This document shows positions 36,115 through 40,038 of a stretch of 40,038 nucleotides of DNA, piece after piece (the stretch's first letter is position 1; each line of letters opens with the position of its first letter). The DNA is from an uncultured Actinomycetes bacterium. Its GTDB lineage: Bacteria; Actinomycetota; Actinomycetes; Nanopelagicales; Nanopelagicaceae. Both the position numbers and the translations under genes were made by a program. Under the pieces are notes generated by a model. The model did no database searches. It was not told the DNA's origin and saw nothing but the letters and a program-made list of their open reading frames with translations. Location: contig CAIOIJ010000060.1 in assembly GCA_903858325.1 (NCBI GenBank), positions 1-40,038 on the forward strand. Direction: 5' to 3'.

Positions 36115-37055
36115 CCGCGGTAGATTTCTCAACAACATTTAGCAATGCGTGGTTTCCAACACCACTTTTTACTGCCAGTGGCTGCGCAAGTTCAGGTAAG
36201 GAATTAGCGCAATTCTTTCCACTCAAAGATATTGGTGCAGTAGTCACGAAATCAATTATGAACAAGGCTCGACTCGGTAGACCAACTCCTCGAATGGCTG
36301 AAACGCCAAGCGGAATGCTCAATTCGATAGGTTTGCAGGGTCCAGGAATTGATACTTTTCTAGAAAAAGATATTCCGTGGCTCATCGAACAAAAAGCTCG
36401 CATTATTGTTTCTATTGCGGGGGAGACCGTTGAAGAATATTCAACGCTAGCTCGAAAACTTCGCGCCGTTGCGGGAATTAGTGCAATTGAAGTAAATATC
36501 TCGTGTCCCAATGTTGAAAACCGCGGTCTGGTATTTGCGTGCGACCCCGAAGCCTCAAGAAAAGTTATTGATGGCGTACGTCGCACTATTGGCGGAGAAA
36601 TCCCTATCATTGCCAAACTTTCACCTGATGTGACCGACATAGTTTCTATCGCGCGCGGAGTTGTTGATGCAGGTGCAGATGGATTAGCCCTGATCAATAC
36701 TGTTTTAGGAATGGTCATCAACGTTTCAACAATGCGTCCGCATCTGGGAGGAAAAACTGGTGGCTTATCTGGTCCAGCAATTCGCCCCATTGCTGTTCGT
36801 GCCATTTATCAAGTACATGCGGCGATGCCACACGTTCCAATTCTTGGAATGGGCGGAGTAGCAAGTGGTCGAGATGCATTTGAAATGATTCTGGCTGGTG
36901 CAAGTGGTGTATCAGTGGGAACCGCAAGTTTTGGAAATCCAATGGCTATTCCGCAGATTCAAGAAGAGCTCAAGGCACTGCTAGCGGAAAAAGGTTTCAA
37001 GCAACTCAAGGATGCAATTGGGTATGCACATAGAAGCGATGAAACGCATGAATAA
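36111..37055 (+). CDS. pyrD: Dihydroorotate dehydrogenase, class 1B
   Basis: GPGIDTFLEKDIPWL, IEVNISCPNVENRG (catalytic Cys, class 1), PIIAKLSPDVTDI, PILGMGGVASGRDAFEMILAGAS. Adjacent to pyrK. Confidence 0.95.
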   Translation: MTAVDFSTTFSNAWFPTPLFTASGCASSGKELAQFFPLKDIGAVVTKSIMNKARLGRPTPRMAETPSGMLNSIGLQGPGIDTFLEKDIPWLIEQKARIIVSIAGETVEEYSTLARKLRAVAGISAIEVNISCPNVENRGLVFACDPEASRKVIDGVRRTIGGEIPIIAKLSPDVTDIVSIARGVVDAGADGLALINTVLGMVINVSTMRPHLGGKTGGLSGPAIRPIAVRAIYQVHAAMPHVPILGMGGVASGRDAFEMILAGASGVSVGTASFGNPMAIPQIQEELKALLAEKGFKQLKDAIGYAHRSDETHE

Positions 37056-37752
37056 CGCCTCACCTCTGATTTTGGCGCTTGATACTTCTGATTTACAGAT
37101 TGCGCACAAATGGATTGAGTGCACGCGTGAATCTATTGGTGTATATAAACTCGGTTTAGAATTTTTTGCAATGTTTGGCAGTAAAGGCGTAGAAGAGATT
37201 ATTGCGCAACACGGCGTTGAAATTTTTTTGGATTTGAAATTGCACGATATTCCACACACTGTTGCTGGTGCAACGCGAGCAGTAGCGCATTTGAAACCTC
37301 GTTTTCTCACAGTGCACGCAGCTGGCGGAGCAGCAATGGTTTCGAGTGCAGTTGAAAACGCTCCCAGTACCGATATAACTGCGGTAACAATTCTTACTTC
37401 GCTATCAGATGCTGATCTCAAGGATTTAGGTTTTGCCAGTAATGCATTGATGAGCGCGGCACAATTGGCCAAAGTTGCCGTCGGCGGCGGAGCACGAGCA
37501 ATCGTTTCATCGCCATTTGAAATTGAGGCGATTAGAGAAAGTGTTGGCGCCGCACCAATCATTATTACCCCAGGAGTTCGCCCCGCCGATTCACAAGGGG
37601 GAGATGATCAAGTACGAGTTATGACACCGCAGCAGGCGCTCACGCGCGGCGCCAATTATGTAGTCATCGGTCGCCCAATAACGTCACTATGGTCACAGGG
37701 TGCTCCAGCAATGAGAGATAAAGCTGCGCAAATTCTTGCAGAGAGCATTTAG
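37039..37752 (+). CDS. pyrF: Orotidine 5'-phosphate decarboxylase
   Basis: LILALDTSDLQIA, IFLDLKLHDIPHTVAGATRAV, IITPGVRPADSQGGDDQVRVMTPQQAL. Start at 37039 (or 37048). Confidence 0.94.
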   Translation: MKRMNNASPLILALDTSDLQIAHKWIECTRESIGVYKLGLEFFAMFGSKGVEEIIAQHGVEIFLDLKLHDIPHTVAGATRAVAHLKPRFLTVHAAGGAAMVSSAVENAPSTDITAVTILTSLSDADLKDLGFASNALMSAAQLAKVAVGGGARAIVSSPFEIEAIRESVGAAPIIITPGVRPADSQGGDDQVRVMTPQQALTRGANYVVIGRPITSLWSQGAPAMRDKAAQILAESI

Positions 37753-37762
37753 TTTTTACCGA

Positions 37763-37768
37763 TAGATT
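37763..37768 (+). promoter_or_regulatory. Candidate -10 element (TAGATT) positioned for a leaderless transcript
   Basis: TAGATT (TANNNT) occupies -12 to -7 relative to the ATG at 37775. No Shine-Dalgarno is visible immediately upstream. Confidence 0.4.
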
Positions 37769-37774
37769 TAGACT

Positions 37775-38650
37775 ATGCCAACTCCTCCAAAACTGACACC
37801 GGAAGAGAGAAGCGCTGCATTAGCTAAAGCAAGTTATGCACGCAAACGCAGAGCCGAAATCAAGGCGCAGATCAAAAGTGGGGCACTAGATCTTCCAAGC
37901 GTTTACGCCCTTGCACAATCTGATGAAGCGATATCGAAGATGCGTGTAGCCGAGATGTTGGAATCTATTACTGGTGTTGGCAAAATTCGTGCGCTCTCCA
38001 TTATGGAACGCCTCAATATTTCATCAACGCGGCGTATCAAAGGTTTAGGCGCGCATCAACTAAAAAATCTTCTCAAGGAATTCGCTGCAGCACCCCAAAA
38101 AATGAGGCGCGGAAAGTTGATTGTTTTGTCAGGTCCTGGCGGCGTAGGAAAGAGCACGGTAGCTGCGCAACTTCGAGCAACAGGTGACTATTGGGTGAGT
38201 ATTTCGGCGACAACGCGCGAACCACGCACCAATGAAATAGATGGAGTCGATTATTTCTTCATCGATGATGTCGAGTTTCAGAAAAGAATTGATGCATCTC
38301 ATTTTCTCGAGTGGGCACAATTTGCAGGTGCGAAATATGGAACACCGCAGAAAGGCGTGGAAGATGCACTGGATCAAGGACACAATGTTTTATTGGAAAT
38401 CGAAATAGATGGTGCCAAGCAAGTAAAATCACATATGCCTGAAGCGCTATTGATATTTTTGGCACCTCCCAGTTGGGAAGATTTGGTATCTAGGCTTGAA
38501 GGCAGAGGCACTGATAGTCCTGAGAGGCGCACAGAACGCCTTGCGCTAGCCCAAGAAGAGCTAGCGGCAGCGCCTTCATTCGACCTTGTTATCGTAAATA
38601 CTTCGGTCAATGAAGTTGTCGAGCAACTGGTATCCTTGGCCTCTGCTTAG
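37775..38650 (+). CDS. Fusion protein: mycobacterial/streptomycete-type integration host factor (mIHF) domain + guanylate kinase
   Basis: N-terminal PPKLTPEERSAALAKASYARKRRAEIKAQIKSGAL...ITGVGKIRALSIMERLNISSTRRIKGLGAHQLKNLLKEF (mIHF), followed without a stop by RRGKLIVLSGPGGVGKSTVAAQLR...SISATTREPRTNEIDGVDYFFI (guanylate kinase). Confidence 0.93.
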   Translation: MPTPPKLTPEERSAALAKASYARKRRAEIKAQIKSGALDLPSVYALAQSDEAISKMRVAEMLESITGVGKIRALSIMERLNISSTRRIKGLGAHQLKNLLKEFAAAPQKMRRGKLIVLSGPGGVGKSTVAAQLRATGDYWVSISATTREPRTNEIDGVDYFFIDDVEFQKRIDASHFLEWAQFAGAKYGTPQKGVEDALDQGHNVLLEIEIDGAKQVKSHMPEALLIFLAPPSWEDLVSRLEGRGTDSPERRTERLALAQEELAAAPSFDLVIVNTSVNEVVEQLVSLASA

Positions 38651-38694: not shown

Positions 38695-38943
38695 ATGGAC
38701 GGAATCACAAATCCACCGATTGATGAACTTTTGGATAAGAGTGGATCGAAATACGGACTCGTTCTCTATGCAGCAAAGCGTGCGCGCCAGATCAATGCAT
38801 ATTATTCACAACTCGGTGAAGGCTTACTCGAATATGTTGGACCTTTGGTCGAAACACATGTTCACGAGAAGCCACTTTCAATAGCCCTACGCGAAATTAA
38901 CGAAGGCCTATTGACGATTGAGAATCTCGAACCAACCGCGTAA
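38695..38943 (+). CDS. rpoZ: DNA-directed RNA polymerase subunit omega
   Basis: [40 protein letters not shown]...[24 protein letters not shown]. Position after gmk. Confidence 0.95.
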
Positions 38944-38964: not shown

Positions 38965-40038
38965 ATGAATAAAAGCGGAAAAGAAGTAGTTCTCGGTGTT
39001 GGCGGTGGAATTGCCGCCTATAAAGCATGCGATTTACTTCGAAGGCTTCAAGATGATGGTTATTCAGTCACTGTAGTACCAACGCCTTCATCTTTGAACT
39101 TTATTGGCAGCGCTACATGGGAAGCTTTATCAGGTCGCGCTGTGTACACACAGGTTTGGGAAAATGTTGCCGGCGTAACACATATTTCCTTGGCAGAGAA
39201 AGCTAATTACTTTCTCATTGGTCCAGCTACTGCCGATCTCATTGCACGAATCGCTGCAGGTAGAGCCGATGACCTACTTACCAATTTAGTTTTAGCGACA
39301 AATGCTCCAATCATGATTGTGCCGGCGATGCATACAAATATGTGGAATGACGCCGCAACACAAACTAATGTAACAACACTACGTAATCGTGGTTATCACG
39401 TGATGGAACCCGCTACTGGTCGACTAACAGGTGAAGATTCTGGTCAAGGAAGATTTCCTGATACCGCGCAAATTCTTGAAGAGTTTTCTAAAGTCACTGG
39501 TCAACGTCGCGATTTAGTCGGCAAGAAAATTCTTATCTCTGCAGGCGGAACCCGCGAACCAATTGATCCCGTGAGGTTTATTGGCAATCGTTCCTCGGGT
39601 AAACAAGGATTTGCTTTAGCCGCAGCAGCTTTTGCACGCGGTGCTGATGTTTCTTTAGTCGCAGCAAATTGTGAGATTTCAGATATTGCAGGGGTGCACA
39701 TGATTCGTGTCGAACGCGCCGATCAAATGTTGCATGAATTGCAAGCACGCTTTAGTGCAAGTGATGTAGTGATTATGAGCGCTGCAGTTGCAGATGCGAA
39801 ACCTAAGCAAGTAGCACGCGAAAAAATCAAAAAGGCACTCTTTGGTTCAATCGAATTAGAGGCAAATCCTGATCTCATTGCAACACTTACTGCCAATCGT
39901 CGCAAAGGCCAAGTAATAGTGGGCTTTGCTGCAGAGACTACAGAGCATATGATTTCAGCACAGAAAAAATTGGAGAGCAAAGATCTTGATTTGCTCTATC
40001 TCAATGATGTTAGTGGGGGAGCTATCTTTGGTAGCGAC
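38965..40038 (+). CDS. coaBC: Phosphopantothenoylcysteine decarboxylase / phosphopantothenate--cysteine ligase (3'-truncated by window edge)
   Basis: The frame is open to the window end, so it is absent from the ORF track. MNKSGKEVVLGVGGGIAAYKACDLLRRL, VPAMHTNMW, ISAGGTREPIDPVRFIGNRSSGKQG. Confidence 0.96.
   Translation, partial: MNKSGKEVVLGVGGGIAAYKACDLLRRLQDDGYSVTVVPTPSSLNFIGSATWEALSGRAVYTQVWENVAGVTHISLAEKANYFLIGPATADLIARIAAGRADDLLTNLVLATNAPIMIVPAMHTNMWNDAATQTNVTTLRNRGYHVMEPATGRLTGEDSGQGRFPDTAQILEEFSKVTGQRRDLVGKKILISAGGTREPIDPVRFIGNRSSGKQGFALAAAAFARGADVSLVAANCEISDIAGVHMIRVERADQMLHELQARFSASDVVIMSAAVADAKPKQVAREKIKKALFGSIELEANPDLIATLTANRRKGQVIVGFAAETTEHMISAQKKLESKDLDLLYLNDVSGGAIFGSD

Follow-up and report, generated by a model that had tools for sequence, protein, structure and literature searches.

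The window, that is the whole stretch of 40,038 nucleotides that we analysed, carries on its forward strand a single gene for a protein with two parts, a DNA-binding domain of the mIHF type and a guanylate kinase (Gmk; Table 1). According to the ORF listing and its translation, the frame from 37775 to 38650 comprises 291 codons plus a stop codon and contains zero internal stops. H2TH_5 and Guanylate_kin were the Pfam domains detected in the 291-aa protein. The N-terminal part scored 118.9 bits against the curated actino_IHF profile NF041260 (cut-off: 60 bits) and covered profile positions 3–101 of 102. The C-terminal part scored 214.4 bits against the TIGR03263 equivalog profile (cut-off: 160.45 bits) and covered positions 1–178 of 180. 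The initial annotation had described one 291-aa ORF with a full mIHF domain and a complete guanylate kinase, which is confirmed by the stop-free frame and by scores above both curated cut-offs. The domain is a member of the actino_IHF family; the protein as a whole is an in-frame fusion to Gmk and not a stand-alone mIHF of ~105 aa encoded beside gmk.

Table 1. Features at the fusion locus; positions are those of the window
Feature	Position	Strand	Basis
Upstream neighbour pyrF (orotidine-5'-phosphate decarboxylase); its start codon is uncertain	37012..37752	+	ORF; order as in annotated relatives
−10-like hexamer TAGATT, −12 to −7 relative to the start ATG	37763..37768	+	Fixed offset across the family
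mIHF-guanylate kinase fusion gene	37775..38650	+	291 aa plus stop; ORF, profiles, homologues
mIHF / S13-like H2TH DNA-binding domain, residues 5–103	37787..38083	+	NF041260, 118.9 bits; PDB relatives
RRIKGLGAHQ motif of the mIHF domain, residues 86–95	38030..38059	+	Residue conservation
Interdomain linker, residues 104–112	38084..38110	+	Variable sequence, near-constant length; pLDDT under 50 at 106–109
In-frame ATG (codon of Met110), suggested as an internal start but not conserved	38102..38104	+	Comparison of fused genes
Guanylate kinase domain, residues 113–289	38111..38641	+	TIGR03263, 214.4 bits; fold match 1s4q
P-loop GPGGVGKS, residues 120–127	38132..38155	+	Sequence; conserved positions
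rpoZ (RNA polymerase omega), downstream neighbour	38695..38943	+	ORF; gmk-rpoZ order elsewhere
coaBC, runs off the window	38965..40038	+	ORF; order as in Tsukamurella

The relatives of the mIHF domain in the PDB are sIHF (SCO1480; 4itq, 6bek) and mIHF (Rv1388; 6tob). Compared with these proteins, the window protein has a full-length domain (E-values of 9e-27 to sIHF and 1e-23 to mIHF) in which the basic and glycine motifs are retained, and the neighbourhood pyrF-mihF-gmk-rpoZ is common to both. The known form is a free protein of ~12 kDa, whereas the form in the window makes up the N-terminal part of an enzyme of 291 aa. When the window protein was compared with Gmk (Rv1389; PDB 1s4q, 1znw), a complete catalytic domain was found (about 47% identity in the fold alignment, TMt 0.83), with the P-loop and further conserved core residues (S144, TTR146–148, R151, E179, R240, R244, R255 and N275) present. 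The known Gmk starts just before the first strand, while the window protein extends N-terminally by a DNA-binding domain.

The fusions in the window's family (f1) keep the positions that are conserved in the stand-alone forms, both those of mIHF (K/R23, K/R26, K/R30, G69, K/R72, RR86–87, GLG and Q95) and those of Gmk (the P-loop, TTR..R and the lid arginines). Retention of the basic and glycine positions of mIHF is ~100% in f1, and most of them are retained in a second fused family described below (f35). Within the RRIKGLGAHQ motif, these positions are kept in the separate forms as well as in the fused forms of f1 and f35. An AlphaFold2 model (13-row alignment; pLDDT 87, pTM 0.60) predicted two confident domains and a hinge at residues 106–109 with pLDDT values below 50, and gave no sign of a fixed interdomain arrangement.

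Between close relatives, the linker was 11–33% identical, compared with 56–83% for the mIHF domain and 65–89% for Gmk (ranges that leave out the relative L033). Its length is near constant, and most family members have 24 residues from GxGxxQ to the P-loop. No conserved residue was found in the linker among the compared relatives, nor did it contain a conserved protease site or an intein.

It had also been proposed that initiation at the in-frame ATG at 38102 yields a separate Gmk besides the fusion, with two products from one locus. This ATG lies right before the kinase core, and some relatives have other ATG, GTG or TTG codons in the linker. However, Met110 is missing in the closest relatives, which are 83–85% identical, and 16 of 62 distinct fused genes contain no ATG, GTG or TTG at all between the final mIHF motif, GxGxxQ, and the first strand of the kinase. 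The sole Shine-Dalgarno-like match in the 30 bases before 38102 is an AGGA that begins 26 bases upstream, in agreement with the earlier remark that the single AAGGA nearby is rather distant from this codon, and no TAnnnT occurs at −12 from it. The claim of a second product is thus unsupported, as the ATG is not conserved and has neither a Shine-Dalgarno sequence in range nor a −10 element, and we consider internal initiation very unlikely.

For the start of the fusion itself, we compared 60 upstream regions of the window's family, 57 of which were distinct. TAnnnT was located exactly at −12 in 35 of the 57 distinct regions and at any other offset in no more than five. A TAnnnT at −12, directly before the start codon, is the layout expected of actinobacterial leaderless mRNAs. 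The hexamer at 37763–37768 suggests, as far as can be read from sequence, a leaderless transcript that begins at the ATG at 37775, within the pyr cluster. Because the offset of TAGATT before 37775 is conserved, the fusion is probably served by a promoter and a start codon of its own.

The window's assembly (1.4 Mb) consists of 164 contigs and is about 81% complete, which would leave room for a sequencing or assembly artefact that removed a stop codon. Against this, one stop-free frame was found in each of the 33 genomes of the same genus that gave a match, at 54–85% identity. The single open frame is also present in many single-contig genomes, including ~99%-complete ones, and in a second, distant family. 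Artefact and chance are excluded for practical purposes because the single frame recurs at these identities throughout the matching genomes of the genus; the concern about a sequencing indel is refuted by dozens of independent genomes, and the residual probability of an artefact is negligible. Among the relatives, a Candidatus Planktophila sp. record (L035) encodes a protein 67% identical to the window protein; the window thus probably comes from a small-genome relative of Planktophila within the freshwater acI actinobacteria. Among the records L031, L034 and L039, those titled Bifidobacterium breve encode proteins 83–85% identical to the window protein, and one titled Klebsiella pneumoniae has a gmk only 45% identical to the query; these titles look like misassigned MAG names.

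mIHF was present in 160 of 160 genomes of the window's family. The genes are fused in ten of its 16 genera and separate in six (g28, g30, g31, g130, g133 and g134), where 26 genomes have a separate mihF frame of 105–154 aa. In the ten remaining genera, mIHF lies in frames of at least 197 aa, mostly 290–340 aa, at every place listed. The window's own genome (about 81% complete) yielded one mihF match and one gmk match, both of which are the fusion. At the family threshold, no second mihF or gmk was found in this genome or in complete relatives, and no second gmk scored above the cut-off in 22 genomes checked. Two genomes of genus g30 (G410 and G465) each have two mIHF-family matches, unlike all other family members.

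The wider search covered a class-level sample of 395 genomes and a phylum-level sample of 120 genomes. Beyond the window's family, the class-level sample showed the fusion in f35 and in two genomes of family f33. All 22 sampled genomes of f35 are fused: 20 in the class-level listing, G337, and G187, in which contig ends cut the frame. The 298-aa gmk product of a Microbacterium sp. (NZ_CP072877) contains both domains and is 74–78% identical to three f35 members, and we therefore assign f35 to the Microbacteriaceae. The long Microbacteriaceae 'guanylate kinase' (WP_223172673.1, Microbacterium, 298 aa) has the same mIHF-Gmk architecture and neighbourhood as the window protein. It differs by a slightly longer linker and a more diverged mIHF domain (69.6 bits against the cut-off of 60). 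In the Microbacterium replicon (L101, NZ_CP072877.1, 2014–5455), pyrF is broken up into two frames, and the fused gmk is separated from rpoZ by two Fic-family genes. The same two-domain architecture, for which a search of actinobacterial genomes had been advised, is thus not peculiar to the window's genome and is a trait of much of its family and of the Microbacteriaceae.

In the phylum-level sample, apart from the window's own genome, every full-length match contains stop codons or is split into two genes; the adjacency of the two genes therefore looks ancestral and the fusion derived. In almost all other actinobacteria sampled, mihF and gmk are adjacent but separate. Tsukamurella has separate genes in the order mihF-gmk-rpoZ, as does M. 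tuberculosis (PMC6155035). These arrangements support the earlier claim that the fusion arose from two adjacent genes. No mIHF match was found in genomes G040 and G068, in which mIHF may have been lost or the copy may have diverged. G040 (family f5, locus L083) is a small genome, and the part of its 280-aa frame that precedes gmk is not mIHF-like.

We constructed a tree of both domains from 75 sequences. The tree requires four changes between the fused and the separate state, all of them forced by well-supported branches. A single origin of all fusions was rejected (p-AU 0.008), as was a single origin for the window's family and the Microbacteriaceae, which places the Microbacteriaceae form as a separate origin (p-AU 0.007). 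Two joint origins were not rejected: f33 together with f35 (p 0.12), and f33 together with f1 (p 0.18). On these sequences, at least two fusion origins are firm and a third is likely. In the free tree, genera g30 and g134 are nested inside the fused clade by supported branches; a tree in which all f1 fusions were held as one clade was not rejected (p-AU 0.337). If the nesting is correct, either the genes fused a second time or a fused gene split. In both genera, the mihF stop codon overlaps or abuts the gmk ATG (ATGA or TGATG) in a different frame, and a small insertion or deletion would therefore suffice to switch states. At other loci (L084–L090), mihF and gmk share one frame but are divided by a stop codon. 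From these arrangements we infer the routes between the two states: the stop codon between neighbours in the old pyrF-mihF-gmk-rpoZ-coaBC cluster would have been lost, or a one-base shift would have joined overlapping genes.

The gene probably encodes one bifunctional protein with a flexible linker, in effect a guanylate kinase tethered to DNA at a ratio of 1:1. Its N-terminal mIHF domain would bind and bend DNA, its C-terminal domain would be a working guanylate kinase (phosphotransfer between GMP and ATP), and the short flexible linker would join both. As no second copy of either gene was found, all mIHF and all guanylate kinase would be made 1:1 in one chain. The kinase would be carried on the nucleoid because it shares this chain with the mIHF domain; provided that both domains are functional, the architecture itself implies a DNA-localised kinase. 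We infer that the protein retains both activities, that its chain stays uncut and that the kinase resides on the nucleoid. No evidence of one domain controlling the other was found in the sequence, its conservation or the model.

All synthesis of GTP and dGTP depends on guanylate kinase. In M. tuberculosis, mIHF organises the chromosome and is both essential and among the most abundant proteins (PMC6155035). Guanylate kinase is not usually needed at such a level, which makes the forced 1:1 ratio a puzzle. Partial proteolysis at the linker could ease the puzzle. In a stricter version, a post-translational cut would separate the two proteins and the fusion would merely coordinate their synthesis. 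Such a cut would reconcile the very different demands, and the variable sequence and predicted disorder at residues 106–109 would permit it, but the linker is short and has neither a conserved protease site nor an intein. We regard the cut as very doubtful. The mIHF part could also be a decaying remnant beside a kinase that alone works. Between close relatives, the mIHF domain (82–83% identical) does diverge faster than the kinase (86–89%), and it is weaker in the Microbacteriaceae. However, the genomes contain no other mihF, the gene product is essential in M. tuberculosis (PMC6155035) and the basic and glycine positions persist in f1 and for the most part in f35, which makes a remnant highly improbable.

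The initial annotation had raised both a DNA-localised kinase and nucleotide sensing. Beyond a tethered kinase, the protein might act as an allosteric sensor: GMP, ATP or ppGpp on the kinase would alter DNA binding by mIHF, or the reverse, and guanine-nucleotide status would be coupled to chromosome architecture. In favour of a sensor, the physical fusion of both activities arose at least two times, the linker is near constant in length while its sequence varies, a relA/spoT-like gene is present in the same window, and a solved Gmk-(p)ppGpp complex (4qrh) is among the structure matches. On the other hand, the low-confidence hinge and the pTM provide no hint that the two domains share a fixed interface, zero linker residues are conserved, and genes that are transcribed together can fuse although their products are not functionally coupled. 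A sensor is unlikely, and no observation made here points to sensing directly. We judge it quite unlikely that a recurrently evolved, nucleoid-bound guanylate kinase uses guanine-nucleotide or ppGpp occupancy to tune how the attached mIHF domain bends DNA. If the sensing reading were true, metabolism would act directly on chromosome architecture in actinobacteria, dominant freshwater lineages among them.

For the bifunctional, tethered kinase that we prefer, a 1:1 lock in one chain that evolved at least two independent times would challenge the view that the level of a nucleoid protein is set independently of metabolism. Fused Microbacteriaceae and their unfused relatives offer a natural test of coupling between nucleotide metabolism and chromosome architecture. 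The fusion spans several actinobacterial groups, abundant lake bacteria among them. We found no description of a mIHF-Gmk fusion in the open-licence literature. Each domain belongs to a family already known, and databases list the long protein as 'guanylate kinase': the NCBI annotation of the Microbacterium copy is simply 'guanylate kinase', which mentions the kinase only. In whole families, this name conceals the nucleoid protein, and surveys of nucleoid-associated proteins that seek a short stand-alone mIHF could therefore miss the fused form.

Spread of the fusion by plasmids or phages was considered and rejected, as the plasmid matches that contain both genes represent clusters of the chromosomal type, and the single phage match is a lone mihF. 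The latter lies in Saccharomonospora phage PIS 136 (JX006077, 29131–29439) and is a stand-alone mihF homologue, 36.9% identical and the sole one in 50,697 phage records.
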